From a virus, in IMG/VR virus record IMGVR_UViG_3300042691_027337, positions 1 to 29,592 of that record: a stretch of DNA of 29,592 nucleotides, one strand, 5' to 3'. Both the position numbers and the translations under genes were made by a program. Shown piece by piece: positions 1-29,592 of this stretch. Below the pieces are notes generated by a model that saw nothing but the letters and a program-made list of their open reading frames with translations, had not been told where the DNA came from and ran no database searches. How positions within the stretch are numbered: the stretch's first letter is position 1; each line of letters starts with the position of its first letter.

Positions 1-1
1 C

Positions 2-1321
2 TTGGAGCTGGCCGCCAAGCTCCAGGCCGTCACGAAGCAAGCCCAGGCTCAGCTCGCCCAGCGGATGCACGTCGTCACGAAGGGCACGGTCACGTCGCCC
101 AACCAGACGTCCCAGGTTCTCGCCTTCGCCAAGGCCGCCGGCTACCCGCACGACAACCTCCAGAAGGACACGATCCGCGCCCGCCTGAAGGAGCTGGACC
201 CGGCGCCGTCCCTGGAGCGCGACATCCTCCAGGTCCGCCGGGAGGCCGCGCGCGCCTCGACCGCCAAGCTCTCGTCGCTCCAGAAGGGCGCCTTCAACGG
301 GCAGCTCTATGGGTTGCTCCAGCACTACGGCGCGAGCCGCACCGGCCGGTGGGCCGGGCGCATCTTCCAGCCGCAGAACCTTCCCCGCCCCACGATCAAG
401 AACGTGGACAGGGCAATCGAGGGCGTCATGGCCGGGCTCGACGCCGACGCCCTGGAGCTGTTCTTTGAAGACAGCGCCCTCGGCGTGGTGGCCTCCTGCC
501 TCCGCGGCACGCTGGTCGCGAGCCCTGGGAACCTTCTGGTCAGCGCCGACCTCGCCCAGATCGAGGCGCGCGTGATTGCCTGGCTCGGCGGGCAACAGGA
601 CATCCTGGACGTCTTCGCCCGCGGCGAGGACGTCTATGTCTACACCGCCGCCAAGGTCGGCTCGACCGACCGCCAGCTCGGCAAGGTTCTGGTCCTCGCC
701 TGCGGCTTCGGCATGGGGCCGAACAAGTTCCAGGACACGGCCAAGACCTACGGGATGAGCCTCACCCCGCTGGAGGCCCAGGGCCATGTCTATGCGTGGC
801 GCGGCGAGAACCCGGCCATCTGCGATTTCTGGTGGAACTGCGACGCCGCCGCGCGAGACATCGCTTCAGGCGACAAGGGGCCGATCCACGTCGGGCCGGT
901 GTCGTTCCGGCGCCGCGGCGCCACCATGCTGATCCGCCTGCCTTCGGGGCGGGACCTTGTCTATCGCGGCATCGGCATGGAGTGGGACCGCGAGCAGGGA
1001 CGGGACGCCATCACCTACTGGGGCGTCAACCAATACACCCGGAAGTGGACCCGCATCCGGACCTATGGCGGCAAGCTGGCCGAGAACATCACCCAGGCCA
1101 TCGCTCGCGACGTCATGGCCGACGCCATGCTGGAGCTGGACCGGCAGGACGTGGACACCCGGCTGACTGTCCACGACGAGTTGATCGCGGAAGCCGATCA
1201 GGCCGACGCCGACGACACCCTTCAACTCATGCTCGACGTGCTCGGCATGACGCCCTCCTGGGCGCCGGGCCTGCCCGTCGCCGCCGCCGGATGGGCCGGC
1301 CCCCGCTACCGGAAAGGATGA
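2..1321 (+). CDS. Family A DNA polymerase, C-terminal part (5' end outside window)
   Basis: Replicative phage DNA polymerase of the PolA family. The reading frame is open to the window edge, so the N-terminal part, including any 3'-5' exonuclease domain, is not visible; residues are numbered from the first full codon. Motif A (S-A-D-L-A-Q-I-E-A-R, catalytic Asp at 183) and motif C (V-H-D-E, Asp392) carry the two metal-binding acids. The O-helix (motif B) reads R-x3-K-x3-L-x3-F-G from residue 224. The Klenow Phe762 equivalent is therefore Leu232, and the usual Tyr766 is Phe. These motifs are seen directly; the family assignment is secure. The gene ends two bases before the next start and heads the plus-strand operon. 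Replication of the phage genome is inferred from family and context. Confidence 0.93.
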   Translation: MELAAKLQAVTKQAQAQLAQRMHVVTKGTVTSPNQTSQVLAFAKAAGYPHDNLQKDTIRARLKELDPAPSLERDILQVRREAARASTAKLSSLQKGAFNGQLYGLLQHYGASRTGRWAGRIFQPQNLPRPTIKNVDRAIEGVMAGLDADALELFFEDSALGVVASCLRGTLVASPGNLLVSADLAQIEARVIAWLGGQQDILDVFARGEDVYVYTAAKVGSTDRQLGKVLVLACGFGMGPNKFQDTAKTYGMSLTPLEAQGHVYAWRGENPAICDFWWNCDAAARDIASGDKGPIHVGPVSFRRRGATMLIRLPSGRDLVYRGIGMEWDREQGRDAITYWGVNQYTRKWTRIRTYGGKLAENITQAIARDVMADAMLELDRQDVDTRLTVHDELIAEADQADADDTLQLMLDVLGMTPSWAPGLPVAAAGWAGPRYRKG

Positions 1322-1323
1322 CC

Positions 1324-1545: not shown

Positions 1546-2015
1546 GCAAGATGCCTTGGGACATCGAGGGCGACGAGAAGCTGTTCCTGTCCAGGCGCGG
1601 CGGGCTCCAGTGCGTCATCCTTCGGCACTACGAGCTGCGCCACCTGTGCGGCTACGTCGGGGTGAAGCGCGTTCACCCCTACGCCGGGTTCGACATCAAC
1701 GCGGACGAGGTCGGCGGGCTCGCTGTCCACGGCGGCGTGACCTGGTCCAGGGATAAACTCCCGGACCTGCTCGCGCTCCACCTGAACGATCAGTTCGAGC
1801 GGACAGTCGGCTGGTGGTTCGGCTTTGACTGCGCCCACGCCGGGGACATGACGCCGGGGCTCAACTCCAAGCTCAAGGACCGGCTCCCGCGGTTCCTGCG
1901 CGGCGCCTACCGGACCATGGAATACGTCCACAACGAATGCGAACGGCTGGCCTTCCAGCTCGACCGCGTCGCCAGGGGGAAAACGCCCTGGCCCACCGGG
2001 GGGAGTTCGACATGA
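1542..2015 (+). CDS. Conserved phage protein of unknown function (157 aa)
   Basis: I recognise the pattern but not a function. The segment L-C-G-Y-V-G-V followed by H-P-Y-A-G, then V-H-G-G-V-T-W-S, then W-W-F-G-F-D-C-A-H-A-G-D and a final E-Y-V-x-N-E-C-E helix, matches a family of roughly 150-residue hypothetical proteins common in phage replication regions. Conserved Trp, Cys, His and Asp residues suggest a compact, possibly metal-binding domain; this is inference. The gene is coupled by ATGA overlaps on both sides, to the HicA-like gene and to the GcrA homologue, so it is co-transcribed and probably early. No signal peptide or membrane segment is seen. Confidence 0.8.
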   Translation: MSKMPWDIEGDEKLFLSRRGGLQCVILRHYELRHLCGYVGVKRVHPYAGFDINADEVGGLAVHGGVTWSRDKLPDLLALHLNDQFERTVGWWFGFDCAHAGDMTPGLNSKLKDRLPRFLRGAYRTMEYVHNECERLAFQLDRVARGKTPWPTGGSST

Positions 2016-2497
2016 GCTGGACAGCCGAGAGGGTGGAAACCCTGAAGAAGCTGGTGGCCGAGAACTGGTCTTCCGGGGCTATCGCCCGAGAGTTCGGCGT
2101 CACCCGGAACACGATCATCGGCAAGCTGCACCGCATGGGCATGTCCACCCAGATCGCGCCCGGCTCCGGCAAGGCTTCCGAGGGCGCCATCACGCTCCGG
2201 GCGACGCGCCGCGCCAAGGGCAACCCGACCGGCGTCAAGGGCGTCAGGGGCGCCGTCCGCAAGGCCGCCGTGGTCCTGAAGCCTGTTGAGCTGCCGCGGC
2301 TGGAGGACGCCCCGCCGTCCCTGGACGTGCCGTTCCTGTCCCTCCCCCGGAAAGCCTGCCAGTGGCCCGCTTCCGGGGCAGGGCTGACCCTTCTCTGTTG
2401 TGGGAACCCAACCGCCCACCATGAGAGCATGGCGCCATACTGCGCCTATCACCTGCGGCTGGCTTACACGCCGCGTCCCGAAAGGAAGAAGACATGA
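2012..2497 (+). CDS. gcrA: GcrA-family cell-cycle transcription factor
   Basis: Full-length phage homologue (161 aa) of alphaproteobacterial GcrA. In Caulobacter, GcrA binds sigma-70 RNA polymerase and activates promoters carrying CcrM-methylated GANTC. Residues 1-47 hold the helix-turn-helix (M-S-W-T-A-E-R-V-E at the start, then G-V-T-R-N-T-I-I-G-K-L-H-R-M-G). A basic, Ala/Lys-rich linker follows. The C-terminal part keeps the family signature C-x-W-P, C-C-G-N and P-Y-C-A-Y-H-L-R-L-A-Y, the region used to contact sigma in the host protein. The start at 2012 is chosen because it begins the homology, overlaps the previous stop as ATGA, and has a GGGGGAG site seven bases upstream. It could tune host or phage promoters. 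I saw no GANTC in this window, so a host target is the simpler inference. Confidence 0.93.
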   Translation: MSWTAERVETLKKLVAENWSSGAIAREFGVTRNTIIGKLHRMGMSTQIAPGSGKASEGAITLRATRRAKGNPTGVKGVRGAVRKAAVVLKPVELPRLEDAPPSLDVPFLSLPRKACQWPASGAGLTLLCCGNPTAHHESMAPYCAYHLRLAYTPRPERKKT

Positions 2498-3015: not shown

Positions 3016-3056
3016 TTTTGTCGCCCAACGCGCACCTACGGCCCTTTGAAAAAGCT

Positions 3057-3083
3057 GGACAAGTTGGTGTCCTTTGTCTTTTT
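3057..3083 (+). terminator. Probable rho-independent terminator of the plus-strand operon
   Basis: GGAC (3057-3060) pairs with GTCC (3069-3072) around an 8-base loop, and five T follow at 3079-3083 within a T-rich stretch. Five A at 3049-3053 lie opposite, which allows further A-T pairing and some activity in the reverse direction. The stem is short, so strength is uncertain, but the position just after the last early gene fits. Confidence 0.5.
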
Positions 3084-3249: not shown

Positions 3250-4143
3250 ATGCACGACAAGACTTCTGAGCGCAGGACGGCCCAGGACCCGCTAGCGCAG
3301 CACCCTTATCGCCGCGAACTTAACTCGCTCACCGCTTTTTACATGAAAGACCCGGCCACAATAGCCGCGGGGCAGAAGCTAGGGATTTTCTTCAGGCTGA
3401 CCTATAACCCCGGCCAAGGCGCGGCCTTTACGTTTGACAGCCTGGAGACGGTGCATCAGGCGAAAGCCGCGCTCATCGGCGCGAGTGAAGACAAACTCGC
3501 TGAAATGGCCCGCGCTTTTGTCCCCCAGAACACGACGCACTGCATCGGTTTTGCGCGCTGCGGGGCTGTCCACGCGCAAGTGGACCCGCTGGCAGAAGGC
3601 CCTGTGTTTACGGTCGCGCGAGTAGCAAACGGGGCCAAGGACGCCGTTGAGTTTGGCGTTATAGACCGCGAAGCAAACACGGTTTCTTACCACATCATCG
3701 GGGGCATCGACTTCAAAGGGCCGGATGCGTTTCTTTTCAGGTTTACAAATGAAACCAAGCAGCCGAGTGTTGTCGTTAAACACTTATATATGTTCCATAA
3801 CTTCTTTAATTTTCTATATCTGGTGCTATTTCTTTTGTTGAAGCCCAATAACTACGTTGACCGCGCTACGTTGGACGCTCGGCCCATCGGCGCAAAGACT
3901 GACCGCGGCCAGCCGGTCATGCGCCGGCACGTCGAAATCAAGTTGAGCGCGGCCGTCGCCGCGCGGCGTGACGCCGAAAAGCGCGCGGCGGCTGCGGAGC
4001 AGGAGCGGCTTGCCCAGCTCCGGGCGTTCCACCTCTGTCGGGCTCACACCCGGCGCTTGCGGTCTGGCAAGGAAATCCTGGTCCGGGCGCATCACAGGGG
4101 CGATCCATCCAAGGGAACCCGGACCCACACCTACACGGTCTAG
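3250..4143 (+). CDS. Unrecognised membrane protein of foreign composition (297 aa)
   Basis: I do not recognise this protein. The ATG at 3250 is preceded by AAAAGGAGAGG, a strong ribosome site. Residues 1-170 look like a soluble alpha/beta domain. Residues 178-200 are very hydrophobic and aromatic (F-F-N-F-L-Y-L-V-L-F-L-L-L), a single likely membrane segment. Residues 235-260 form an Ala/Arg/Glu-rich helix, and the C-terminus is basic with several His. Codon use differs sharply from every neighbour: TTA, ATA, TAT and other A/T-ending codons are frequent and the region around 3735-3850 is AT-rich. It stands alone between the tRNA fragment and the late operon, so it looks like a transferred accessory gene (a 'moron'), perhaps expressed from a prophage. 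Its stop TAG at 4141-4143 lies within a CTAG shared with the opposing gene. Confidence 0.8.
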   Translation: MHDKTSERRTAQDPLAQHPYRRELNSLTAFYMKDPATIAAGQKLGIFFRLTYNPGQGAAFTFDSLETVHQAKAALIGASEDKLAEMARAFVPQNTTHCIGFARCGAVHAQVDPLAEGPVFTVARVANGAKDAVEFGVIDREANTVSYHIIGGIDFKGPDAFLFRFTNETKQPSVVVKHLYMFHNFFNFLYLVLFLLLKPNNYVDRATLDARPIGAKTDRGQPVMRRHVEIKLSAAVAARRDAEKRAAAAEQERLAQLRAFHLCRAHTRRLRSGKEILVRAHHRGDPSKGTRTHTYTV

Positions 4144-7100
4144 AAGCCGGAGGGGGACCGACCGGAGCCCCCGGTCTTGGTGCCCTTCTCGCCCACGATC
4201 GCCGTCGCGAACTGGTCGGCGGCCGAGTTGGACGTGATCTTCTGAAGCCCGAGCCCGATGGCGGTCCCCGCAAGGGGGCCGCCCGGGAGGACGCTCAGGC
4301 CCGCCGCCAGGGCCGGGACCCCAAGCATCTGATAGGCCGCCTTCACGGCGTTATACTCGCCGCTGTTGGTGTTGGCCGAGTTGCGGCCGGCGAAGGCGGA
4401 CAGGATCGGCTGCATCCCCGAGTTGAGGAAGTAGCCGAGTTGGGCGCCCGCGGCGAACGACGTCAGGTCGCGCTCGTATTTCAGACCGGTGATCGCCTGC
4501 TGGAACGGGTCGAGCGTGCCGAAGAGGCCGGTCCTGGACAGCGCGAGCTTCAGCAACCAGTTGACCAACTCCCCCTCTTGCTCCTTCTCTTCCCACTTGT
4601 CGCCGTTGAACAGCGCCTCGCGCGCGGCCGTCGCGAGAACCTGGCCCAGGAACAGGAGGGTGAACCCCCCGGCCATGGTGCCGAACGCGCCGGCGCCCAT
4701 GCGCGCCGCGGCCCACCCCTTGCCCATGTCCCCTTGAGCGATCGACACGTCCCGGATCATCCGGTTGAACACCCGGAGGTGGACGTTGCGGGTGAAGGAG
4801 TAGTTGAACGACGAGATACCATAGACCAGGCGGCCCCAGGTGCTCGTCGCATAGATCGGCTTGTCCACGCGGCCGGGGTTCTGGATCGTCTCGTCCACGA
4901 AGCGGTTGGCCGCGACCGTGAAGAGCCGGCCCGCCTTGCTGTCCAGCTCGTCCAGGGACGGCGGCGTGTCCTTCTGGAGCAGCCAATCCACGAAGGCGTT
5001 CATGTCGCTGTCTTCGATGCCAAGCTCCCGGAACTCGGCGCGGGCGCGCTCGGCGCGGATCGAGCCGGAGAGGCCGCCCTTTTCCTTGGGGCTCTTCACC
5101 ATGACCGCCAGCTCGCGGAGCCACAGGAAGCCGCCCGCCAGCGCGGCGCGGCGCTGCGCGTTGGTCAGGTGGGTCAGGCCCGTCCGCATGAAGAAGCTCG
5201 CCAGGAGGCGCTGGGACTGGATGCTGTCCCCATACATGCCGGCCATCTGGTGCTGGATGATACCCTCCGCGAGCGGCGTGGTGACGACGCCCAGCGCGCG
5301 GGCGAGAGCCGCGCGCTCCTGGACCGTCTTCGCCGTCCGGAACATTTCGCCCACATAGGAGACCATCGTGGTGAGCGCCGCCCGCGGCGAGCCCGTCCGG
5401 AGGAACACCGTCAGCGGCTCCGAGAAGGACGTCCAGATCGTGCGCGGGAGCAGGGCCAGCGTCCCGCCGACATAGATCGCCGTGGACAGCCGGCGCAGGG
5501 ACGAGTGGTCCACGCTGGTCATGTTGCCGGTGATGCGCTCGATCATCGCGCGGATTTCGCGGATGTCCTCGGGGTTGGCGCCCGACCGCATCGCTTCCTT
5601 CAACGTCATTTCCAGCCGGTTGTGCTCGGCGGGGTTGGTAAGCTCCTGGATCACCCGGATGCGCCCCTTCGGCGTGCCGGGGTCGTAGCGCCGGTAATTC
5701 TGGGCGATGGCGTCCTGGACGCCCCTCTGGCGCAGGACCGCGTCCAGGTCCGAGTTGGCGCCGGAGGCCATGGGGGCGCCGAACCGGCGGACATACTCGC
5801 GCTTGCGGGCGCTCTGGTGCATGTAGTGCGCCGACGCCTCCACCGGGTCCTTGATGTAGAAGTCTTCCAGCAGCCGGTCCGCCTCGGGCGGCAGGGTGCG
5901 CTCCTTGGTGAAGTTGCCGTCGGGACCCTTGGTCGCGAAGGTGATGGGGTTGCCGAGCAGGATGTTCTCCCGCCACTTCGTCGCCGCGACCTCCGACCAC
6001 ACCGGCCGGATCAGGACGGCCAGCTCGTCGATGCGGGCCTGAAGCTCCTGGGACTTGGTCGCGATGGCCTGGGGGTCGGGCTTCTTCGCGTCCTTGAGGT
6101 TCTTCAGCTCCCGGGCCATGCGACGGATGTCCTTCATCGCGTCCTGGATGTCGGGGTCGCGGAGCCTGTCCGGGGCGAAGCTCTTGATGTTCTTGATCTT
6201 GTCGTTCAACGCCTTCGGATCGACGTCCTGCGTGCCCACGTCCTTGTCGAACAGGATCGCATAGACCTTGTCGGCCTGGGCCTGGAACTTGGCCGGGTCG
6301 TCGAAGACGGCCGCCTCGTTCAGGATGCGCTGAAGGTAGGCGGTGTCCCGGACATAGCCGATTTCGATGCCCGCGGCGCGGCTGTCCACCCACGCCTTGT
6401 TGAGCAGGCGGCGCAGGGCGCCGGCCAGGTTCTTCTCTTCCTGGGTCGCCGCCGCCGGTTGCTCACCGAGCATGATCCCGCGGACCCGGTCGCTCTGGGC
6501 CGCCGTCAGGCGCTCCCCGAAGCCGTTCATCTTCATGGCGCTGGCGATCTGGTTGGACGCCTGCATCAGCTCGCGCTTCACCGCCCCCTCGAACGTCTCC
6601 CCAACCTGGCGCCCCGTGCCTGGGTCCGTCGCAACACTGTCCACCACGGCCTGGAGATAGGCGTCGCCCTTGCCCTTGTTCCGCAGGACCATGGCCTTCA
6701 TCACACCGCGCATCGAGTAGAAGATGCCGCGGCCGGTATCGGCCACGCGGGTCAGGATCGGGTGCCTCGGGTTGCCCGGGGCGTCCTTCAGGCCGGCGCG
6801 GTCCCGGATGCCGACCCCAAGGGTGGACAGCGTGGTCCCGACGTTGCCCTTGGCGACCTGGACGGCGGTGTTCCTGATCCGGCCCAGCTCAGCCTTCACG
6901 TCGGCCAGAAGCCCCGGCTCGCCCTGCTGGAGCGCCATCTTGTTCCAGTGCTGCGGATCGAGGACGTCGGTCTCCACCGGCTTGCCCGCGACCGGGTCCG
7001 CGCCGAAGATCATGACGCCCTGAAGCTCAGCAATCAGGTTGTCGAAGGCGCCGAAGATCGCCATGCGCTCCTGGTCCTTCGGGAACGTGTCCCGAAGCCG

Positions 7101-10100
7101 CCGGTCCGCCATGTCCAGATAGGCCACATCCGGCTTGGTGATGAACTCGTTCGTGCCCCCCGCCGCCTCGACCTTCATCGCGACATACGCCTCGAACGCG
7201 CGCGCGATCATTTCGGCAGGGTTGGCCCAGTAGCGCGGGTCCCCGAACGCCGCCGCCTTGGTGCGGTATTCGGAGCCCACATCCCGGGCGTCCCCGGCGC
7301 CCTTGGTGATCGCGTCCAGCTCGGCCTGGGCGGCGAGCGCCTTGGCCGTCGGGGTCTGGGTCAGGGGGTGGACGTTGGACGCCTCGACCTGGAGCTGGAG
7401 CACGCGATGCGCCAGCTTCGCCTGGTCGAAGAACAGCGCGTTCATGACCTGGACAAAGGCCGCCTCCGGCCCGGTGGTCGTCACATTCAGGCCGGGGTCG
7501 AGCCCCAGCTTCCGGGTCGCCTCCGAGAGCAGCATGTTCTGGGCGGCCGGGTCCTTGTGGAGCTTGTCCACGAGCCAGTGATCGAGCGCGTGCATCCACT
7601 CATGCGCGAAAGCGTTCGAGCGCCCGGGCATGTTGGTCCCGATTTCGATGGCTCGCTGGTCGGGGGAGTAGAGGCCGAAGTAGTTGGTCCTCTTGGACCC
7701 TGCGAAGGTGAGCGCCAGCGTTCCGTCCAGCCCTGAAGCATTCAGCGGCAGGCCCAGGGCGTGGTTCATCATCTGGATGTTGTGGTAGGCGTCGAGCATC
7801 CCATCCAGCGCGTCGCGGATGTTCGCCTTGCCGCCCTTGCCGACGTCGGACACCGCCCGGAAGCCGAACTTCTGGATCAGCATCTTGCGGAGAACCTGAA
7901 ACTGTTGGGCCGGCGGCAGGTTGATCGCGTCGTTCGGATCGAGCCCCGCGTCCCGGAACGCCGTCTCGCGGATCGAGAGCTTGGTGCTGGTCGCGTAGTC
8001 CCGGAACGTCGGTGCGAGCCCCCCACGAGGAACCCTGTCCTCGCGCGTGTCCGGGGCTTGTTCAGTGGGTTCACCGAACAAGTCCGTGTCCGTGTCCAGC
8101 TCAGCGTCCGTGTCCGTGTCCACGCGCTCGGTGCGCGCACGGGTCGGGCTGGTGTCCGCGACCTCGGCCCTGTCCAGCATCGGAGGCGACGCCGCGATGT
8201 TCCCACCCTCGGGACCGAAGCCCAGGGTCCCCTGGCTGGCGTTGTTCCGCTTGTCCATGAGGTTGGAGAGGATGTTGGCCGCGCTCGGCTTCGCGCCGAA
8301 CATATCGCCCACGGCGTTCGCCTGGCGCCCTACCTCGGCGGTGTAGTCCTTGATGAAGTCGCGCGCCTCGCGCCACCCCGCCGCGCGGGTGAGCGACTGG
8401 TTGTAGAACGCCGCGACCAGGGCCTTGGCGTTCGCGGACAGCGGGTTGAAAGCGTCCTGCTGCTTGAGGAACTGGGCCGGCTTCAAGCCCTGCCGGCGCA
8501 TGTTGCCGATGGCGTTGACGGCCGCTACGAGGTCCGCGGTGATGTCGAAGGCGGGATCGGCCTGCGCGCGCATCTGAGCCCAGGCCGGCGCGGCACCGAG
8601 CAGCGCGTTCCGGACGCCGCCGCCCTCTTCGTCCTCGATCAGCTTGTTCGTCAGGTCCACGTCGTCGTATGCCCGCGCGAAGATCGCCGCCTCGATGCGA
8701 CGGGCACCCGCCGGCGTGAGGCGCCCGTCGGCGCCGACGAACGCCGCCTGTTGCGCGGGGGCCATCCGACCGATGACGCCCCGGACGAACGCCGTGTTCG
8801 CCGCCGCCTGGACGCCACCCTCGACGTCGGTCTGGAGCGCACCCAGGGTCTCGGGCGTGATGAGGTCCCGGTCCACACGCGCCTGTTCGGACGGCGACAT
8901 CGCGAGCTTGTCGTCGGTGTTCGACTTGACCACGAACTCGCGCTTCTGCTCGGGGGTCAGGCCCCGCACCCGGCGCACCAGGACCGGCGCCTGGACGCCC
9001 GTCGTGTCGAAACCCTCGGCCTGGAGCCGCTTCAGATAGGCGTCGTAGCCGGCCGGGTTGGACTGCCGGGCGAGCGCCAGCGCGGCCACACGGCCGTTGC
9101 CGGAGAGCACCGTCCCCGTGTCGTCCACGATCGGCGCGCCGCGGTCGGACTGCGGGCTGTCGATCAGGAGGTCCGGATTGAGGTTGCCGGCGATGCTCTG
9201 GATTTGGACCTGGGACGAGGCGCGCGTGTCGCGGTCCCGGGGCTGAAGCTCGCCGGTCGCGCCCTGAAGCGTGGCCGCGTCCACCACCTCGAACTCGCTG
9301 TCCAGGGCCATCGTGCCGTCGGGCGTGGACACGCGCGAGCGACGCGCAGCCGTGGGGGCGGGCGCGGCCGGTGTTTCGATAGGAGCCGGAGCCGGAGCCG
9401 GAGGCTCGACGGGTGCCGGCGCGGGCATAGGCGCCGTGGGGGGCTCGGCAGGAACAGGCGCAGGGACCGGCTCGGCGGGGGGCGGCGAGGGGGTAGGCGC
9501 CGGGGCCGCTGGCTGGGGGACCTCTTCCGGCGGGACTAGGACGAAGCCTGGAGGGACTTCGACAACTCCCGCTCCAGCTCCCGGATTTCCAGGCGCAGGC
9601 TGTCCCGGAACTCCCGCTCCCCCGTCCCCCACGGCGGGCGGAATGACCGGAGCCGGTCCCGCAGGACTTGCAACCGGAGCAACGGGGGCGCTGACGGGTC
9701 CAGGGGCGGGAAGCGGGGTTCCATCGGGGATCGCTCGGCGCGCCAGCATGGCGCCCGGAACTTCTACCGCGGCGCCCGGCAGCTCGGCAATGGCTTCCAG
9801 GGCGATGGCGCTGCGGTCGGTGATCCGGCCGTCACCGGCCATCTGGCCGGCCGCTTCGCCCGCCGCGCCGGCCGCCGCCTGGGTCACACCCTCGGCGCCG
9901 ACGCCCGCCAGGCCGCCACGGACACCGCCGCCGAGGGCTCCGGCAACGGGACGCGCGATCCGGCCGGCGACACCCATGCTCAGGCCGTCGATCGCGCCCA
10001 CGGCGACGCCATAGCGCAGGGCGCGCGTGCGCGCCTCTTCGATGAACGTCGGATCGTCCAGCGCCATCAGCATGTTCTCGCGCGTGAGCGGGAGCCCGCG

Positions 10101-18413: not shown

Positions 18414-19490
18414 TCAGACGATGTCGATGACGAGCGCGGAGTTGAGCTGCCGCGCCACGAGCTGGCCGGTCGAAGTGACCGAACGGTAGAGGACGAACTG
18501 GTTGTAGGGCCGTGCCGGCGTGTGCTGGCGGCGCCACTCCCCTTCCATCTTCATCGGGTAGATATGACGGGGGTCATACCAATAACCGCGCTTCTGGAGG
18601 CTGAGGTCGTCCAGGGTCGGATCATACATAATTTCCACCCCGTCGAACGACAGCGCGCCCATGGCGCCGTCCTGCTTCCCGCGGAAACCGTTCTGCGAGT
18701 AGTAGCCGTTGGCTCGCATTTCGGTCTCCATGGCGCCGATGAAATCGGAGCCGGCGAGGAAGACGCTCGGCTTGCCGCCGAACCGCATGAGCTGCCGCTT
18801 CTCGACCTGGAGGGTCTGGATCAGCGTGCCGCCATTGGCCGGGGACGAGGTCACGGCGCCGGAGCCGCCGGCTGCCGCGTGGGCCGCCGTGCGGGCACGG
18901 TTCCGCCACCAGGTCGTGGTCGCGCGGTTGATGCCGCCGTAGGTCCCCGTCGTCGGGTTCGCCACGATTGCCGCGCGGATGCCGGCGAGCGCCTTGGCGT
19001 CGGACGTGCCGTCGCCCCACCAGAGGGTGTTCAGCGAACGCGCGTAACGCTCACCGAAGTCCTGGAGCTTCGTCTCCAGCAGGCCGACCAGGACGGTCAT
19101 TTCCCGCTTGGAGTGCGTGGTGGTGCCCTCGCCGTTCGTGTCGGTCACGGACAGGCCGTCGATCTTCAGCTCGGTGTGGGTGAGCGTCAGGCCGATGTGG
19201 TGCTCGCGCCAAGCGAAGTTCGCGCGCTTGTTGTTCGCCGGGGTGTAGAAGTTGACGGTGTCGTTGTGGGTGAAGCCAACGAGGCTATCGTTGACGCCAG
19301 CCGCGCCGAAGTCACCGATCACGGCGACCGAGAGGTCGCCCTTGCCGCCGGGGAACGTCTTGGCGTTGCGCTCCATGATGTCCAGGAGCGGCTTGCTCTG
19401 GATCGTCTGAAGGAACGCTTCGCCCTTGTTCATGTAGAAGTCGAGCGCCGAGTTGGCGATGTTGGTCAGTTCGTCAGCCGTGAAGGCCAT
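18414..19490 (-). CDS. Major capsid protein (358 aa)
   Basis: Head-shell protein of the HK97-fold type, identified by pattern: an N-terminal helix with S-K-P-L-L-D-I-M-E-R-N-A-K-T-F-P-G-G-K-G, then N-D-T-V-N-F-Y-T-P-A-N-N-K-R-A-N-F-A-W-R-E-H-H-I-G, and later G-S-D-F-I-G-A-M-E-T-E-M-R-A-N-G-Y-Y, all typical of a capsid family widespread in podoviruses. The C-terminus ends in beta strands (N-S-A-L-V-I-D-I-V). It follows the scaffold gene by 14 bases, the normal scaffold-coat order. Expression is probably raised by the hairpins on either side of the scaffold-capsid pair. Asp-Ser at residues 67-68 is written GAT-AGC, one of the cases that avoids a GANTC site. Confidence 0.93.
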   Translation of the reverse strand: MAFTADELTNIANSALDFYMNKGEAFLQTIQSKPLLDIMERNAKTFPGGKGDLSVAVIGDFGAAGVNDSLVGFTHNDTVNFYTPANNKRANFAWREHHIGLTLTHTELKIDGLSVTDTNGEGTTTHSKREMTVLVGLLETKLQDFGERYARSLNTLWWGDGTSDAKALAGIRAAIVANPTTGTYGGINRATTTWWRNRARTAAHAAAGGSGAVTSSPANGGTLIQTLQVEKRQLMRFGGKPSVFLAGSDFIGAMETEMRANGYYSQNGFRGKQDGAMGALSFDGVEIMYDPTLDDLSLQKRGYWYDPRHIYPMKMEGEWRRQHTPARPYNQFVLYRSVTSTGQLVARQLNSALVIDIV

Positions 19491-20674: not shown

Positions 20675-22825
20675 TCACTGGCTCATCATGGGCGGGGCCG
20701 ACCGCGGGGGTGGCGGGCCGTCAGCACCCATGTTGTTGCGCTTGGGCTCGGCGCCGGAATTGTTCGAGCCCTCGGCGCCCTGGGCGTTCGGGTCCTTGTC
20801 CGCGGGGGCGCCGGTGGCCTGTCCACCGCCGCGGTTCATGGACATGATCGATGGCAGGCCCGCGGTGAACGCCTCCGACAGGTCCAGCTTCTCGTCCATG
20901 CGCTGGAGGATTTGGCGAGCGAGCCATTCCGGGTTGAGCCCCGGGATTTGGAGCAGGACCGGCGCGATCTGATTGATGTTCTGGATTTCGGCGGCCTTGT
21001 TGGGCCGTCCGGTGCTCGCCGCCTCGATGTCCAGGATCAGCTCGCGCGCGGCCTGGTCACGGTTCATTTCCGGCCAGACGGCGCCCGGGCCGACGATCTG
21101 GATGATCGTCTCCTGGGAATACTCCAGGAGGATCACCTGCCCGGCGGCGCGGGCCATGCCGGTCAGCATTTCGTCCAGGTCATCCACGTCCGACGACTGG
21201 CCGGACATGCGGGAGCTTTCCGCGATCGAGGTCTCGGTGGCCGAGGCGCCGGACGTGCCGCCGAGGTTCGCTTCCTGGGCGCCGACGACGCGCAGGATGT
21301 CCTGGAACGGGGCGGACACGTCGTAGAGGCTCGGGTCGATCGGCGGCATCTTGATCGGCTGGAGAAGCTGGTCCACGGACTGTCCAGGCTGGAGCCCGTT
21401 CAGCTCGATGATCGCGTTCGCCGGGTGGTTCCGGAGCTTGTCCTTGTCCTCGTCGTCCAGCATACCGTTGGCGGTCGCCATCTTCGGCCGGTTGGCGCGG
21501 CGATGCTCGCGGAGACCCTGGCGAGCCCGGTTCATTTCGAGCTGCATGTCCCGGATCAGGCGCACGTCGGACATCGGGAAGACCGAATTGGTGTGGTAGA
21601 CGTCGTTGAACGACAGGACGAACCACGGATAGAACCGTTCGATCCACACCTCGGGCTGGCCGGGCTCGCGCAGGAAGTCGGGATAGCCGTCGCACAGGAC
21701 ATAGACCAGGCCGTCCTTGCGGGAATAGACCTCCCAGACACAGAAGACCTCGGAGGACTTCTTGTCCTCCCAGGGCTCGCTCAGGCGCACCGGCTGGCCG
21801 GGGCCTTCGATCTTCTGGTAGGCCCGCGCGCCGGCGCCGGCCGACTGGACGTCCACGCCGTAAATCTCCTGGATGTCCTCGCCGCTCAGCATGAACTCTT
21901 CCGCGACCCAGCCAGCGCCAACCCAGTTGCGGAGGCGCTTGCACTTGGGGTCCGGGATGAGGGCCGTGCTGTCCGGGTAGCTGACGTCCAGGCCCTCGCG
22001 GGCAAGGATCATCGGCTCCTTGGACAGTGCGTTCATGGCGAGCCGGAGCTGTTCGGCCTCGGCGCCGTCAGGGACGCTCTCGCCGTCCGCGATATCCGCG
22101 GACAGGCGCTCGATGGTGGCGAGCTTTTCGGAGTAGTCCGAAATCTGACGCTCGACCTCGGGCTTCATCTTCATGGCCCGCTGGAAGCCGAGCTTGGTGT
22201 AGCCGACGCCGGTCGTGACGGTGCGCCGGACGACCTCCTTCATGCCCTCCTTGAACGGGATGACCTGCTCGTCCAGCGAATAGTCATAGGCCAGCTCCAG
22301 CGAACGCGCGATGCGGTCGAGCATCTGGTTCTGCTGGATGGCCTGCTGGGCGTCGTTGACGATGGCCTGGGCCTGCGCGAGGACCGCCGCCGCGTGTCCC
22401 TGGACAACCGGGTCCGGGACCGTGGACATGATTTCCTGCGCGGAGGCCATCTGCTGCTGGGCCGCCTGGAGCGAGGTCATCGTGCCATCCCAGAGCGACG
22501 AGACCAGCTTGGTCTTGCGGCGGACGACGGTGCGCGGGTTGCGCGCATAGAGCGACGCGGTCCGGTGCTTGATGTGCCGCAGGACGATGTTCGCCACATA
22601 GCGGTCATCGTTGTCGGTCTGGTCCGGCCACTGGTAGCCGGCGGCGAAGCGCATGTCCTCGCGCATCCGCCGGAAGCTGGGCTCCCAATGGACCTTGGCG
22701 GCCCGGATGCGTGACTGCCACTTGCTACACAGCTCGGCGCGCTGGGGCGCGGGGTCCGGGCGCTCGCGCGCCACAACCTTCTCCGGGGCCTGGGGGGTGG
22801 CGCCTACGGCTTCGGTCAGCTCCAT
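20675..22825 (-). CDS. Portal protein (716 aa)
   Basis: Forms the dodecameric DNA gate of the head. Recognisable segments are R-F-A-A-G-Y-Q-W-P-D-Q-T near residue 60, R-T-A-S-L-Y-A-R-N-P-R-T-V near 88, a Gln/Ala-rich helical insertion (about 110-165), Y-D-Y-S-L-D-E-Q near 180, I-P-D-P-K-C-K-R-L near 285 and a long C-terminal region with A-A-G-Q-V-I-L-L-E-Y. The last 50 residues are Gly/Pro/Asn-rich. The length fits the large P22-like portals with a C-terminal barrel extension. ATG 22825 is chosen over GTG 22828 because GGAGG is correctly spaced for it; it shares TGATG with the terminase stop. It precedes the scaffold gene, separated by a hairpin. Confidence 0.93.
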   Translation of the reverse strand: MELTEAVGATPQAPEKVVARERPDPAPQRAELCSKWQSRIRAAKVHWEPSFRRMREDMRFAAGYQWPDQTDNDDRYVANIVLRHIKHRTASLYARNPRTVVRRKTKLVSSLWDGTMTSLQAAQQQMASAQEIMSTVPDPVVQGHAAAVLAQAQAIVNDAQQAIQQNQMLDRIARSLELAYDYSLDEQVIPFKEGMKEVVRRTVTTGVGYTKLGFQRAMKMKPEVERQISDYSEKLATIERLSADIADGESVPDGAEAEQLRLAMNALSKEPMILAREGLDVSYPDSTALIPDPKCKRLRNWVGAGWVAEEFMLSGEDIQEIYGVDVQSAGAGARAYQKIEGPGQPVRLSEPWEDKKSSEVFCVWEVYSRKDGLVYVLCDGYPDFLREPGQPEVWIERFYPWFVLSFNDVYHTNSVFPMSDVRLIRDMQLEMNRARQGLREHRRANRPKMATANGMLDDEDKDKLRNHPANAIIELNGLQPGQSVDQLLQPIKMPPIDPSLYDVSAPFQDILRVVGAQEANLGGTSGASATETSIAESSRMSGQSSDVDDLDEMLTGMARAAGQVILLEYSQETIIQIVGPGAVWPEMNRDQAARELILDIEAASTGRPNKAAEIQNINQIAPVLLQIPGLNPEWLARQILQRMDEKLDLSEAFTAGLPSIMSMNRGGGQATGAPADKDPNAQGAEGSNNSGAEPKRNNMGADGPPPPRSAPPMMSQ

Positions 22826-24420
22826 CACCAGCCTCCATTGCTGCGGGCTCGGGCGTTTTCGCGCCGGGTCCGGTTGCTCTCGTGCATGAGCGCCCCATAG
22901 GTGCCTGGGCGGTAGCGGTCAGCGCCGTGTCGGATCGGACCAGCGGAAATCAGGTAGTTCATGCCCAGGCCGACGTAGGCGAGCGCGTCCACAAAGTCGT
23001 CGTGGGCCGCGCCCGGAAACTTCACGATCTGGTCGCGGGCCTCGGGCCACCACGGCGCGCGCTCGGGGAAGAAAACCTTCCCCATCGCCATGCGCCCCTG
23101 GATCGACTGGGCGCGGGTCTGCTTGTCCGCGATCGGGATGACCTCGCAGACGGCACAGAACAGCCCTTCCTCCAGCATCCGCTTGCGGAGGAACGGGCCG
23201 ATGGACTTGGAAATGTGCGAGCGTTCCGCCCACCAATAGATGGGCTTGTATCGCTGGATCAGCGCCAGCATGGCGTCCACCGCCTGGTCCGCCGAGCCCT
23301 GGCGCCACCACACGTCCGGCAGGACATAAATGTCGTCGTTCTCGTCCACGCCGACCGGGATGAGGCAGGTCTTGTCCCGGTTCTGGAGCTGGGACACGGC
23401 ATGGTCGGAAGCGATGTAGAACCGCAGGTTCTTCGGCAGCTCGTTCGGCTTGTAGGTCTTCAGCCACTCGGACTGAAAGAACGCGCCGCCGTCGGGCGTC
23501 GGCCGGCCCTGGTAGAGGGACGCGAAGCCTGCCGTGTCGCGGCGCTGCTGCTCAAGCAGGAAGCCGCGGTCGAACCGCTCCGGCCAGAGAGCTTCGCCGG
23601 GCTTGCGCCCGAGGGGGTCGCCCTCCAGGGCCAGCGCCGGCAGGTCGATGATCTTCCACTGGGCCGCTTCCTCGGGGTCGTAATAGTCGTTGCCCGGATC
23701 GGTCAGCCGGCCGACCAGGTCGTCCTCATGCCAGCGGGTCTGAATGATGACCACGCGCGCATCCTGGGTCATCATGCGGGTGCCGATGACCTGCGTGAAC
23801 CATGTCCAGAGCTGGTCGCGGATCGTGGGCGAGTTGGCTTCCCGGCGGTCCTTGATCGGGTCGTCGATGATGAGAAGATGCCCGCCGCGGCCGGTGGTCG
23901 TGCCGCCTCGGCCGACGAAGGCGAGGACGCCATCGGCCATCGTCTCCAGTCGGTCCACGGCCGCGGAGCCGTCCTTCAGGTGGACGCCCTCGAACACCTG
24001 CTGGTAAGCCGCCGACTGGACGATGTCCCGGACAGCGCGGCCGATGTCGCCAGCGTATTTCTCGTTGTAAGTGCCGAAGATGATCGAGTGTTCGGGGTGA
24101 CGGCCGGCATACCAGGCCGGGAATTTCTTGGACGCCAGCTCGGTCTTACCGTGGCGCGGGGGGCAGTTGATGATGAGGCGCTTGTAGCGGCCAGCCTCGA
24201 CTTCCTCCAGCGCCGCCGCGATCACACGGTGATGCCGCGCGTCCTCGTAGAGGGACCGCTGGGTGTTGTCGCTGTCGTCGGGGTGCGGCATGACCAGCTT
24301 GGTGAACGAAAGCAGGTCTTCGCGCGCCTTGTCGGCGGCGACCAGGCGCTCGATCGCGCGGAGCGCGCGGGTCTCGGGCGACACCGAGACAGGCTTGAGG
24401 TGGGGATTGGGCTTGCTCAT
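22825..24420 (-). CDS. terL: Terminase large subunit (531 aa)
   Basis: Packaging motor and headful or site-specific nuclease. The ATPase half has Walker A C-P-P-R-H-G-K-T (residues 86-93), Walker B L-L-I-I-D-D (182-187) and a coupling motif Q-T-R-W-H-E-D-D (227-234). The nuclease half has Y-I-A-S-D-H (Asp339), W-W-A-E (Glu399) and H-D-D-F-V-D-A-L-A (Asp474/475/478), the acidic residues of the RNase H-like fold. Length is normal. The ATG overlaps the stop of the tail-fibre-like gene upstream (ATGA), and its stop abuts the portal start. No recognisable small terminase gene precedes it, which is unusual; it may lie outside the window or be one of the unassigned small genes. Confidence 0.96.
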   Translation of the reverse strand: MSKPNPHLKPVSVSPETRALRAIERLVAADKAREDLLSFTKLVMPHPDDSDNTQRSLYEDARHHRVIAAALEEVEAGRYKRLIINCPPRHGKTELASKKFPAWYAGRHPEHSIIFGTYNEKYAGDIGRAVRDIVQSAAYQQVFEGVHLKDGSAAVDRLETMADGVLAFVGRGGTTTGRGGHLLIIDDPIKDRREANSPTIRDQLWTWFTQVIGTRMMTQDARVVIIQTRWHEDDLVGRLTDPGNDYYDPEEAAQWKIIDLPALALEGDPLGRKPGEALWPERFDRGFLLEQQRRDTAGFASLYQGRPTPDGGAFFQSEWLKTYKPNELPKNLRFYIASDHAVSQLQNRDKTCLIPVGVDENDDIYVLPDVWWRQGSADQAVDAMLALIQRYKPIYWWAERSHISKSIGPFLRKRMLEEGLFCAVCEVIPIADKQTRAQSIQGRMAMGKVFFPERAPWWPEARDQIVKFPGAAHDDFVDALAYVGLGMNYLISAGPIRHGADRYRPGTYGALMHESNRTRRENARARSNGGW

Positions 24421-26607: not shown

Positions 26608-26619
26608 GGCTGGCTCCTG

Positions 26620-27021
26620 TCAGGGATATTTTGCGTGGGGGAGCTGGAAATGCGGCCCGTCCTTGAAGGTCTTCCAGTCGCCGCCCCACTCGATCGGCAC
26701 CTTCACGTCCTTCGCCGCCTGCTTCACGACCTTCGCGAGCTGGGAATAGAGCGGCCAGTCCCAGCGGACCTTGCCGTTCAGCTTGACCACGAAGTCCACG
26801 GCCTTGGACGTGCCGTCCTTGCCGGGGATGTGCCGGGACCGGAGGGTGCGGGTGGCGCCCTTGGCGTAGAGCACGCGCTGCTCCGCAAGGGTCCGGACGC
26901 CGCAGGTGATGGCGAAGGTGAAGTCCGGGTCGGACATCAGCTCGGCGGCGCGGTGGACAACCCGGATCAGGTCCGGGTGGACACCCTTGAGCCTGGACTT
27001 GGATGCGTTATCGAGGATCAT
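26620..27021 (-). CDS. Endolysin, peptidase M15 (L-Ala-D-Glu type, 133 aa)
   Basis: Zinc peptidase cleaving the peptide cross-links of murein. The motif order matches T5-type endopeptidase: G-V-H-P-D-L near residue 13, G-V-R-T-L-A-E-Q (41-48), S-R-H (His64) followed by A-V-D (Asp76) as zinc ligands, then W-D-W-P-L-Y, W-G-G-D-W (112-116) and D-G-P-H-F-Q-L with Asp121 and the third ligand His124. No signal peptide or membrane segment is present, so it needs the neighbouring holin. Start at ATG 27021 is where the family begins; the ATG at 27093 adds 24 unrelated residues. It overlaps the preceding membrane-peptide gene by 14 bases. Confidence 0.93.
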   Translation of the reverse strand: MILDNASKSRLKGVHPDLIRVVHRAAELMSDPDFTFAITCGVRTLAEQRVLYAKGATRTLRSRHIPGKDGTSKAVDFVVKLNGKVRWDWPLYSQLAKVVKQAAKDVKVPIEWGGDWKTFKDGPHFQLPHAKYP

Positions 27022-27160
27022 GGTCTTCGTCCTGTGTCCTGATGCGCTTGCCCGTATTGAGGACGAATAAAAGCAAAGCCCCCAGGACCGCAAGCCCGAC
27101 GAGCGTGACCACCAGCTCCACGATCAGGCGTTGAACCTCCAGGGGGAAGGCGCCGCTCAT
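27008..27160 (-). CDS. Small single-span membrane protein of the lysis region (50 aa)
   Basis: Sequence features: a short polar N-terminus, a strongly hydrophobic stretch from about residue 12 to 34 (L-I-V-E-L-V-V-T-L-V-G-L-A-V-L-G-A-L-L-L) and a charged tail K-R-I-R-T-Q-D-E-D-H-D. It starts at ATG 27160, two bases after the stop of the propeller-like gene, and its end overlaps the endolysin start by 14 bases, so it is coupled to lysis. It could be a second holin, an antiholin or an unrelated envelope peptide. No family is recognised. Confidence 0.65.
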   Translation of the reverse strand: MSGAFPLEVQRLIVELVVTLVGLAVLGALLLFVLNTGKRIRTQDEDHDPR

Positions 27161-27162
27161 GG

Positions 27163-28119
27163 TCAAGCCGCCTGGTTGGCGAAAGTGCTGGGGCCGTAGC
27201 CGGTGAGGTTGGCCGTGATGTCCAGCCAATTCGTCCCGAAATCGAACGAAATAAACACGTTGTTCTGGCCGAACGCATAGACATAGTCGCCGTTGCGGCA
27301 GAGCCGGGTGAACCCCGCGCCGAGCGAGACTGCCGTCCAGGTGCCGGTGGGGTTGGCGGCGCGGATCAACGTGTTGCCGGTGGAGCCGCACGCCAGGAAC
27401 TGCGTCCCGGTCCAGATGACGTCCAGAAGGTCCTGCGTGGTTCCGGATGTGGCGAGGGCATAGCTGGTGCCGTTGCTGGAGGCAGAAATCACACCGCCGG
27501 AGGCGACGCCGACGATGTAGCCACCGCCCGCCGCCGCCGCGTTGAACTGGTTTCCGGTGCCGCTGGATCGACTTGTCCAGGTGCCGAGCAGAGTAGCAGT
27601 GTGGAGCGATCCGCTCTGGCCGAAGACGGCGGTGATGCCCAGGCCCGGCTCTCGCGCGATCGCGCGGGCCGCCGCGGTTCCGTTCGGGACGTCGGTCCCG
27701 GCGGTCCAGGGGGATTGCCCGTCCGGGGAAGACGCACTCCGGTCGGTGACAACGCCCGAGGTCGTGGGGAAGACCGCATAGAACCCCCCAGACCCATCCA
27801 GGCATGTCACCACGCCGGGCGCCGTGATGTCGATCGGTGACGTCGCCTGGCTGGCGAAAGCGAGGCCGTCGAGGGACGTGTAGCAGGCAGCAACGCCTGT
27901 GGTCACGACCGGGCCACCAAAGAGGAACCGGGTCCCGTTGTGCCGCAGCGTGTGGACCGAGGGAAACGTGACGGGCAGGCCGGACGCCGCCTGGAGGGCG
28001 CCGAAGTTGTAGCCGTCCAACGCCCGCCAGACCTGCCCCGCCGTCGTGGACAGGACCAGCGTCGGCCGGAGAACCGGCCGGCGCACACCCCCGAGAATAC
28101 CACCAAGTCCCGGGATCAT
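27163..28119 (-). CDS. BNR/sialidase-like beta-propeller virion protein (318 aa)
   Basis: The protein is built of repeated beta units with Asp-box-like turns (S-L-D-G-L-A-F, S-N-G-T-S-Y, S-F-D-F-G-T-N-W-L-D-I), together with repeated T-W-T-(S/A) and G-G-x-Y strands. This is the pattern of BNR repeat propellers found in phage fibre or tail-associated proteins and in sialidases. No catalytic sialidase residues could be assigned, so a binding or structural role is favoured. The ATG at 28119 overlaps the stop of the tail fibre gene as ATGA, so the two are co-translated, suggesting a fibre-associated or host-recognition protein. Confidence 0.75.
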   Translation of the reverse strand: MIPGLGGILGGVRRPVLRPTLVLSTTAGQVWRALDGYNFGALQAASGLPVTFPSVHTLRHNGTRFLFGGPVVTTGVAACYTSLDGLAFASQATSPIDITAPGVVTCLDGSGGFYAVFPTTSGVVTDRSASSPDGQSPWTAGTDVPNGTAAARAIAREPGLGITAVFGQSGSLHTATLLGTWTSRSSGTGNQFNAAAAGGGYIVGVASGGVISASSNGTSYALATSGTTQDLLDVIWTGTQFLACGSTGNTLIRAANPTGTWTAVSLGAGFTRLCRNGDYVYAFGQNNVFISFDFGTNWLDITANLTGYGPSTFANQAA

Positions 28120-29592
28120 CAGCGGACACCCGCGGCGTGGCTGATGAAGATGTTCGAGCTGTCGATGACCTGGTAGAACAGCATCGTCAGCCGGTTGGCG
28201 ACCGTGTCCAGGGTCGGGGCCACGCCGTTGGCGAACTTGTAGACCGCGTTGAAGGCGAGGGTCCGCCCGCCGGTTGCGTCCTGATAGACCAGGATCGAGC
28301 CGGTCTTGCCGGCGACGGTGTTGGTGACAGCGCCGAGGGTGCGGTTGCCGGCCAGCGTCACGCTGAAGTTGATGCCGAGGCTCATGTCCCAGGCAATCGT
28401 CGCGGCGTCGGTGAGCGCGACATAGGCCGCCGCGTCATAAGCCGTCTTGGTGCTGATCGCCTCGTTCGACGTGCCGGTCCGGACAGCCGCGGTCCTGGAC
28501 GCGCCGTTGGGCAGCGTGGCCGGGATGTTCACCGTGATGGTGGCCGCCTCGATGCGGAGGCGTTCGCTCCCCGCGACGTGGAACTCCATGCGGTCGCCGT
28601 TGTGGACATATTCGATGCGGCCGACGGTGTTGCTGTCCGGGTCTCCGAAGTGGATGGCCGAGTTGAAATTCGTGTTGGCGCTCAGGAGCCAGTAGGAGTT
28701 GCCGCCGCCAAAGCTCTGGACAAGGTAGCCACCTGCGGGCGTGACGCGCGCGGCGGCGCTGGCGATCTGGAGGGGTGAGGTCGGGCTGGCGCCGAGGGCG
28801 ATACCGACGAAGCCGCCGCTCGGCTGGAGCAGCAGATGATAGGCTGTTGCCACGGCGTCCACGCGCTGCACCTGGAGCCAGGCATTGCCAGCCCCGCCGA
28901 CGCCGAGGGCGAGGCCGTAGGCGGCGTCCGTGTTGCTGAACAAGGCGGCGATGCCGGTCGCGGCGCCGAGGGTCGGGGTTGTAGCGGCTGCGACGCCGCC
29001 GACGTGGAGCTTCACCGCGGCGGCAGGGTAGGACGCGAAGCCGACCGACAGGTCAACCATCATCTGAATGCGGCCGGCGTTGTTGATCCGCATCCGCTCG
29101 ACAAGGTTCACGCCGCCGTCCGGCGTTGTCCAGAAGGACAGGCGGCCGGGGGCGTCGCCAGCGCCCGGCGTGCCGTCCACGTTGGCGCGGATCATCGCGG
29201 CGGGCGGTGCGTTCGTGCCGTCGTCAATGTAGCCGGACAGGCTGAAGATCGTATCGTCAGCGGCGACCAGCCCGCGCGTGCCGATGGCCGTGCCGCGCGA
29301 CTTGAAGAAGCCCATCTGCGGGCCGCCGTTGTCGTTCGACCAGCGCGAAAAGCTGCTAATGCCGACCGTGCTATGGAACTGCGACGACGGGGTGAACGAG
29401 TTTGACGCGCCGAGCGGGACCTGCGTCGCGTGGCCCTGCTGGAAGTCGCCAAGCGCGGTGAACATGCCCGCCGAGTTGAAGCCGCCCCGGAAGGTGTTGT
29501 TCGTGAAGAACCCGAGGCCGGCAGCGCCGTAGTTGCCGATGTTGATGGAGCTTGCGCCCCCGAAGTCGGTCTTGGCGCTGGAGTTGACGAAG
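28119..29592 (-). CDS. Tail fibre / receptor-binding protein (5' end outside window)
   Basis: The frame stays open to the window edge: bases 29466-29592 read through as N-x-x-x-F-G-G-A-S-S-I-N-I-G-N-Y-G and similar fibre-like sequence. The ATG at 29465 is therefore an internal methionine, not the start. Features include a shaft segment G-F-F-K-S-R-G-T-A-I-G-T-R-G, then Y-I-D-D-G-T-N, R-A-N-V-D-G-T-P-G-A-G-D-A-P-G-R-L-S-F, then E-R-M-R-I-N-N-A-G, a phrase common to many phage fibres. A further shaft follows, with a C-terminal beta domain (A-G-N-R-T-L-G-A-V, Y-Q-D-A-T-G-G-R-T-L-A-F) as the likely receptor-binding tip. Host specificity probably lies in the C-terminal 120 residues. Confidence 0.88.
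   Translation of the reverse strand, partial: FVNSSAKTDFGGASSINIGNYGAAGLGFFTNNTFRGGFNSAGMFTALGDFQQGHATQVPLGASNSFTPSSQFHSTVGISSFSRWSNDNGGPQMGFFKSRGTAIGTRGLVAADDTIFSLSGYIDDGTNAPPAAMIRANVDGTPGAGDAPGRLSFWTTPDGGVNLVERMRINNAGRIQMMVDLSVGFASYPAAAVKLHVGGVAAATTPTLGAATGIAALFSNTDAAYGLALGVGGAGNAWLQVQRVDAVATAYHLLLQPSGGFVGIALGASPTSPLQIASAAARVTPAGGYLVQSFGGGNSYWLLSANTNFNSAIHFGDPDSNTVGRIEYVHNGDRMEFHVAGSERLRIEAATITVNIPATLPNGASRTAAVRTGTSNEAISTKTAYDAAAYVALTDAATIAWDMSLGINFSVTLAGNRTLGAVTNTVAGKTGSILVYQDATGGRTLAFNAVYKFANGVAPTLDTVANRLTMLFYQVIDSSNIFISHAAGVR

Follow-up and report, generated by a model that had tools for sequence, protein, structure and literature searches.

Why should a phage genome lack every copy of one short word, and does the loss of that word stand alone? 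We addressed these questions in IMG/VR virus record IMGVR_UViG_3300042691_027337, analyzed over its whole length of 29,592 bases (positions 1 to 29,592; hereafter the window), in which GANTC, the site of the cell-cycle methylase CcrM, is missing. The original prediction, made from the letters of this sequence, had noticed the absence, and our count confirmed it: GAATC, GACTC, GAGTC, and GATTC each occur 0 times. The G+C content had been put at about 66%, whereas we measured 68.0%; the roughly 90 sites said to be expected by composition agree with a computed 87. First-, second-, and third-order Markov models gave expectations of 132, 78, and 36 sites, respectively. Hereafter, counts written a/b are observed over expected, with the expectation taken from a Markov model or a synonymous-codon shuffle.

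As a coding-aware null, synonymous codons were shuffled 500 times within each of 25 genes, which cover 95% of the window. The shuffled sequences carried 39.5 ± 4.7 GANTC sites, with a minimum of 26. We also used IMG/VR contig IMGVR_UViG_3300005525_000046 (43,503 bases), which was identical to the window at 16,765 of 16,765 bases compared; judging from the alignment offset and the junction, the window corresponds to the reverse complement of contig positions 733 to 30324. The 13.9 kb of this contig outside the window (the outer part) likewise contains no GANTC, against 13.3 ± 3.2 (minimum, 5) in shuffles of a 13.2-kb piece of it. The motif was missing both from 12 core genes (0 versus 18.4 expected) and from 15 genes without a detected family relative (0 versus 11.7). 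Shuffles never reach 0, and the loss, complete and far beyond chance, thus implies strong selection, as had been proposed. In favor of a by-product (of composition, codon choice, or the sequencing and assembly) are the high G+C content, which lowers AT-containing sites, and the third-order expectation of only 36. However, no shuffle in 500 reached the observed counts, pentamers of the same composition are present, and separate contigs and isolate genomes show the loss (GANTC 0/15 in L006, 1/90 in phage Mae-Yong1326-1, and 4/188 in Rhizobium phage RHph_N65). The synonymous shuffles rule out a composition or codon artifact, and we give the by-product explanation as a whole practically no credence.

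Comparison with other pentamers also bore out the depletion. Among the 16 palindromes of the form XYNY'X', GANTC is the sole absentee; the next lowest (observed/second-order expectation) are CTNAG (19/62), TGNCA (32/96), TCNGA (64/136), and AGNCT (51/81). Among 495 pentamer classes with at least 8 occurrences expected in the window plus the outer piece, 6 fell below 0.12 of expectation, every one containing GTAC or GANTC, and no unrelated pentamer of the same composition was depleted to the extent of GANTC. The loss is complete as claimed but not unique in this genome, which also lacks GTAC and many palindromic hexamers.

GTAC occurs 0 times in both the window and the outer piece, against shuffle means of 47.4 and 17.0. 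Palindromic hexamers absent from the window number 41 of 64, compared with 13.4 ± 2.2 (maximum, 19) in the 500 shuffles. Among hexamers with at least 5 expected, 14 of 29 palindromic ones were absent versus 43 of 1924 non-palindromic ones, and many of the absent non-palindromic hexamers contain GANTC or GTAC. Relative to the shuffle, the words lost from the window and outer piece together include GTCGAC (0/36), CTGCAG (0/24), GGGCCC (0/24), GAGCTC (0/20), CAGCTG (0/18), CTCGAG (0/17), TGGCCA (0/13), ACGCGT (0/11), AGCGCT (0/10), AGGCCT (0/10), and GGATCC (0/9). Non-palindromic losses comprise GAGGAG (0/28) and GAGATC (0/18), with GAGATG nearly absent (2/17); the degenerate site RGATCY (1/24) and the interrupted site CAGNNNCTG (1/22) are similarly rare. 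The 13.9 kb outside contains only four of the 41 palindromic hexamers that the window lacks: CACGTG (1), TGCGCA (2), GAATTC (1), and TACGTA (1). Some palindromes occur in the window at about their expected frequency or more often (GGCGCC, 85/64; GACGTC, 33/30; CCGCGG, 57/53; TCGCGA, 19/17; GCCGGC, 65/68) or are about halved (CCCGGG, 18/37; ACCGGT, 3/6).

Most of the lost words are sites of familiar Type II enzymes, namely, HinfI, RsaI, SalI, PstI, ApaI, SacI, PvuII, XhoI, MscI, MluI, BamHI, and AlwNI, with GAGGAG belonging to BseRI. The sites lie far below a null that preserves composition and coding, and the avoided words are mainly palindromes whereas similar non-palindromes are kept. GTAC and about 20 palindromic hexamers have been eliminated; therefore, much of the signal reflects general Type II restriction avoidance. 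The original prediction was right about strong selection and, as described below, about the host class, but it missed this broad loss of other sites.

Two other interrupted words behave unusually. TCGNCGA was observed 3 times in the whole contig, against 32 (second-order) or 47 (synonymous shuffle) expected, while its near neighbors ACGNCGA (44) and TCGNCGC (73) are abundant; Mae-Yong1326-1 avoids it as well (1/27), whereas RHph_N65 does not (86/55). This avoidance resembles an unfamiliar restriction specificity, and we know of no enzyme that recognizes the word. TCCNGGA, by contrast with its expectation, is over-represented in the contig (83 versus 21 by the second-order and about 37 by the third-order model; 51 places in the window), and an excess also occurs in a 32-kb part of Mae-Yong1326-1 (44/13.6).

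The predicted terminase, portal, capsid, endolysin, and DNA polymerase genes mark the record as a tailed phage. The features assigned in the window, with their supporting matches, are as follows.

1..29592: whole window, with GANTC 0, GTAC 0, and 41 of 64 palindromic hexamers absent
2..1321, + strand: predicted family A DNA polymerase, C-terminal part (gene leaves the window; PF00476, 1e-17; phrog_17, 6e-65)
2012..2497, + strand: GcrA homologue, 161 amino acids (PF07750; PDB 7ye1)
4140..10805, − strand: predicted polyvalent protein, 2221 amino acids, with ddrB-ParB and LPD1 domains (PF18763; similarity to P1 DdrB)
10805..11632, − strand: predicted soluble lytic transglycosylase (SLT)-domain protein (PF01464, 5e-13)
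18414..19490, − strand: predicted major capsid protein (phrog_9953, 4e-40; DNA match to Mae-Yong1326-1)
20675..22828, − strand: predicted portal protein (phrog_156, 3e-10)
22825..24420, − strand: predicted terminase large subunit, the basis of the family tree (phrog_38, 4e-114)
26620..27093, − strand: predicted endolysin, M15-type (phrog_465, 1e-54; PF13539)
28119..29591, − strand: predicted tail fiber protein, open at the window end (phrog_18345, 4e-17)

Bacterial and virus relatives were collected by terminase similarity. Among the best 80 of 363 matches, the closest bacterial loci belong to Devosia (62%), a Rhizobiales bacterium (57%), Nitratireductor soli (49%), and Bosea lathyri (46%), all of them Hyphomicrobiales. 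These four loci and the full-length GcrA homologue independently support the predicted alphaproteobacterial host, which likely lies within the Hyphomicrobiales. The terminases of RHph_N65 and Mae-Yong1326-1 are 48.5% and 58% identical to that of the window, respectively. The latter phage (L001 and L160; OP028995.1) also has a capsid protein with 73% identity and an integrase and repressor in common with the window family. It is reported as a Microcystis phage of 71.80% G+C that lyses 7 of 39 cyanobacterial strains (PMC9503304). Contrary to this published host range, the phage may naturally infect a companion bacterium.

The GANTC avoiders form a supported phage clade. The terminase tree comprised 76 rows, 69 of them different, each being the best tblastn segment per locus (L073 and L076, with short matches, were left out), and a row with less than 0.2 of the expected GANTC count was labeled an avoider. 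One branch (Shimodaira-Hasegawa-like approximate likelihood ratio test [SH-aLRT], 95) contains avoiders in 15 of its 16 rows, and one avoider, L052 (6/37), lies outside it. None of 500 label shuffles was as clustered as the observed labels, a figure that near-copies inflate. In 12 clade members and 24 outgroup loci, hand-picked from this tree, the pooled GANTC counts were 11/458 and 840/1177, respectively. Other sites vary within the clade: GGCGCC stands at 85/56, 79/83, and 26/16 in three members and at 0 or 1 in the other nine, and CAGCTG, at 0/12 in the window, reaches 41/19 in Mae-Yong1326-1 (32-kb part). Such lineage-wise gain and loss of sites would follow from shifting encounters with restriction enzymes. 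Over the 12 members, AGGCCT (0/50), CTCGAG (0/29), CTGCAG (0/48), and GGATCC (1/69) are lost as thoroughly as GANTC, but across the wider family they are less thoroughly lost. Elsewhere among the relatives, a clade of L019, L033, L037, L039, L049, L066, L067, and their kin lacks GTAC wholly (e.g., 0/50 in L049) and keeps GANTC; there, palindromic hexamers are not avoided overall, with a pooled observed/expected ratio above 1.2 and 2 to 10 of 24 to 43 absent.

Over 17 family members, GANTC was the most evenly lost of the motifs tested, falling below 0.15 of expectation in 16 of them (16 of 18 when L056 is counted); the next most evenly lost were CGTACG (9 of 11) and GGATCC (8 of 10). L056 (9/14), L007 (4.1 kb, 0/8), and L006, a near copy of the window, were kept out of this set. 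In some relatives GANTC is nearly the sole loss. RHph_N65, with its 4 sites in place of 188, lacks only 4 of the 49 palindromic hexamers with at least 4 expected. The Nitratireductor prophage segment carries GANTC at 0/79 and has lost 2 of 35 palindromes (surroundings, GANTC 83/304), and the Bosea segment carries it at 10/180 and has lost 2 of 44 (surroundings, 79/199). More palindromes are gone from the Devosia segment (GANTC 17/155; 9 of 45 lost versus 0 of 45 in the surroundings) and the Rhizobiales segment (9/146; 14 of 46 versus 1 of 46), in both of which the GANTC loss is partial. The loss is nearly specific to GANTC in RHph_N65, Nitratireductor, and Bosea but not in the window or in the Devosia and Rhizobiales prophages. 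Because the GANTC count itself was used to set the borders of the prophage segments, both here and in the 17-member set, low values are favored; fixed 21-kb loci gave 9/70 for Devosia, 5/72 for Rhizobiales, 10/92 for Nitratireductor, and 3/78 for Bosea. In the 20-kb Bosea locus L192, 7 of 9 GANTC sites are bunched within 3.3 kb, as if this were newer DNA awaiting purge.

The converse pattern also exists. T7 lacks 15 of 59 palindromes and keeps GANTC (218/162), HF1 lacks 41 of 48 in 45 kb and keeps it (338/313), and in the related contig L061, 16 of 28 (at least 3 expected) are missing while GANTC stands at 38/39. Because the loss of GANTC marks a clade, is nearly the sole loss in some relatives, and does not occur in the palindrome-avoiding T7 and HF1, it is a layer separate from broad site avoidance. 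Nor is it general among alphaproteobacterial phages: none of 23 other phages and prophages fell below 0.15 of expectation (pooled, 0.41; lowest, phiLM21 at 0.17 and RcapMu at 0.19). These controls were hand-picked and consisted of 13 genome loci of at least 15 kb, together with their host flanks, and of 10 phages sampled over 20 kb each; the alphaproteobacterial loci L092 (7/33), L107 (14/57), L152 (10/26), and L085, L148, and L156 (<9 kb) lay outside the set.

We consider it fairly probable that selection has freed the DNA of this phage from the sites of many Type II restriction enzymes, GANTC included. Nucleases would be the selecting agents behind the losses, as unmodified phage DNA without sites would escape cutting. 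A first layer, the loss of GANTC, is common to the phage family; a second consists of lineage-specific, mainly palindromic losses (GTAC, GTCGAC, CTGCAG, GGGCCC, GAGCTC, CAGCTG, CTCGAG, TGGCCA, RGATCY, and others), for which avoidance of Type II restriction is the best interpretation. In the case of the GANTC layer, a HinfI-type nuclease in the host would restrict unmethylated GANTC, and phages would respond by methylating their own GANTC or losing it. Such a nuclease might be cheap for the host because CcrM already methylates host GANTC. Alphaproteobacterial phages are reported to encode their own GANTC methylases, several of them unrelated to CcrM (PMC5537653, PMC7139368). These enzymes look like a need for methylated or site-free DNA, and for this reason we regard restriction of unmethylated GANTC as a likelier cause than interference by CcrM or GcrA.

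Several observations weigh against this explanation. Temperate phages reportedly show complete elimination of sites less often (PMC6286503), yet an integrase and a repressor-like gene are present on the contig. L056, inside the avoider clade, keeps GANTC at 9/14 in 4.2 kb. Moreover, since the other alphaproteobacterial phages and prophages keep the motif, selection by a GANTC nuclease cannot act uniformly across these hosts. An explanation through CcrM faces this objection too, so that the retention counts against both as general rules.

That alternative starts from the host's epigenetic circuit. GcrA in the hosts is a regulator that binds CcrM-methylated GANTC promoters. GANTC-bearing phage DNA might titrate away CcrM or GcrA in complex with RNA polymerase, or cell-cycle methylation might misregulate it; in that case, the phage GcrA would have its targets among host promoters alone, and the other lost sites would reflect ordinary restriction avoidance. 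The even loss of GANTC over the family and its loss from members whose other palindromes are close to normal (Nitratireductor, Bosea, and RHph_N65) fit this proposal. GcrA was present in all 11 alphaproteobacterial genomes searched, four hosts of family prophages included, and the phage itself encodes a homologue. The latter, scanned as 1937 to 2497, matched PF07750 over profile positions 1 to 153 of 155, essentially its full length, at 82.4 bits against a curated cutoff of 26.9, and GcrA of PDB 7ye1 aligns end to end (residues 1 to 160; E, 2e-19); by homology, the window protein is a predicted relative of the host regulator. The chromosome around the prophages is also low in GANTC (0.27 to 0.40 of expectation), in line with the published under-representation of GANTC in CcrM-bearing Alphaproteobacteria (PMC3973325).

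Nonetheless, Caulobacter phage phiCbK, which encodes GcrA (PMC3556154), keeps GANTC (37/59), as does Cr30 (89/121; first 20 kb of each), and other alphaproteobacterial prophages sit near the host GANTC level. A lack of GANTC in Caulobacter phage Cr30, initially expected, was not borne out in these 20 kb. Nor does GcrA obviously travel with the loss: one of the 50 related records covered contained it (50 out of 77 loci, many of them fragments), and tblastn detected relatives of the window GcrA in 0 of 26 comparison sequences. No close relative was matched in the phage collection (tblastn, 1e-5), though GcrA-bearing phages have been published; one distant IMG/VR relative, L162 (31% identity), lies on a contig that keeps GANTC (34/54). 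We therefore rejected GcrA as a general cause of GANTC loss, given these frequencies and the retention of GANTC in phiCbK and L162. Taken as a whole, an origin in the epigenetic circuit appears rather doubtful. A response of the GANTC loss to the host CcrM mark in the broader sense, through either solitary GANTC nucleases without their own methylase or disturbance of CcrM and GcrA, is a tentative proposal of slightly better standing.

The pressure might also come from the phage side, with a phage-encoded nuclease attacking GANTC, perhaps methylated, in host DNA and the phage staying site-free to spare itself. Among the loci sampled, the loss tracks the phage family over the host class, as this would require. 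However, we noticed no family-shared candidate among the genes of the window contig: those with counterparts in each of the six long comparison sequences encode structural proteins, the polymerase, DUF2800, SNF2, a repressor-like helix-turn-helix (HTH) protein, an excisionase-like protein, and an integrase. We regard a phage nuclease as very improbable.

Selection by host restriction enzymes, the explanation we prefer, can be set beside the rest of the gene content. Outside the window, the contig carries a phage integrase, a repressor-like HTH protein, and a weakly matched excisionase-like protein, and because of these genes the phage is probably temperate; relatives were found inside bacterial contigs. 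Further genes there encode a primase, an SNF2 helicase, and RuvC. No clear candidate for a phage GANTC methylase emerged in the contig: the sole methylase-like gene noticed was a phrog_757 methyltransferase match (L078:650-1330), which no Pfam model matched at 0.001. It adjoins a dATP/dGTP diphosphohydrolase domain (PF18909; L078:1320-1709) on the same contig, outside the window. Within the window, the 2221-amino-acid protein is a large protein with a ddrB-ParB domain, as is DdrB of the P1 defense-against-restriction locus. Residues 499 to 613 match ddrB-ParB (PF18763, 2e-29) and residues 1191 to 1262 match LPD1, and similarity to P1 DdrB reaches 33% identity over residues 488 to 837. This resemblance suggests a possible further antirestriction layer beside site loss.

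Site avoidance as such is already known; what stands out here is the unusual completeness of the loss, together with the disappearance of GANTC from most family members, even ones that avoid few other sites. About half of 33 pelagiphages are depleted of GANTC, with the depleted ones clustering on their tree, and the motif is also missing from a SAR11 proviral region (Seong et al. 2022, PMC9516812). Our family resembles these in being alphaproteobacterial phages whose GANTC loss clusters on the phage tree; it differs in phage groups and hosts, in bearing an integrase, and, in the window, in also losing GTAC and about 20 palindromic hexamers. In HF1-group haloviruses, twenty-one palindromic hexamers are absent across all members (PMC7230728). 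The very broad elimination of palindromic sites is common to both, and the HF1 record is annotated with an integrase and an N-6 DNA methylase; unlike our phage, HF1 is archaeal, has the broader loss (41 of 48 versus 22 of 41 in the window contig), and keeps GANTC. Avoidance is widespread in phages and complete elimination rarer in temperate ones (Rusinov et al. 2018, PMC6286503). The complete or near-complete loss of Type II sites seen here matches such orthodox avoidance, whereas the integrase, excisionase-like, and repressor-like genes of the contig run against that trend. As in phiCbK (PMC3556154), Pam5 (PMC9382816), and phiLM21-like prophages (PMC12429752), a GcrA homologue is encoded in the window; in contrast to the window phage, phiCbK keeps GANTC. 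Excerpts of the open-licence literature contained no report of GANTC loss in this phage family or of its separation from broad avoidance.

The list of missing words can be read as a record of the nucleases that the phage lineage has met, the TCGNCGA specificity included, and the complete loss occurs in an integrase-bearing lineage, where it is reportedly less usual. The material also supplies natural controls, namely, family members that lose little but GANTC and other phages that lose many sites but keep GANTC; with them, one can test whether phage genomes are shaped by a cell-cycle methylation mark instead of by ordinary restriction. If the loss is a response to the CcrM mark, a cell-cycle methylase would drive phage genome composition, separably from ordinary restriction avoidance, and if solitary GANTC nucleases are responsible, GANTC restriction would be a recurrent alphaproteobacterial defense.

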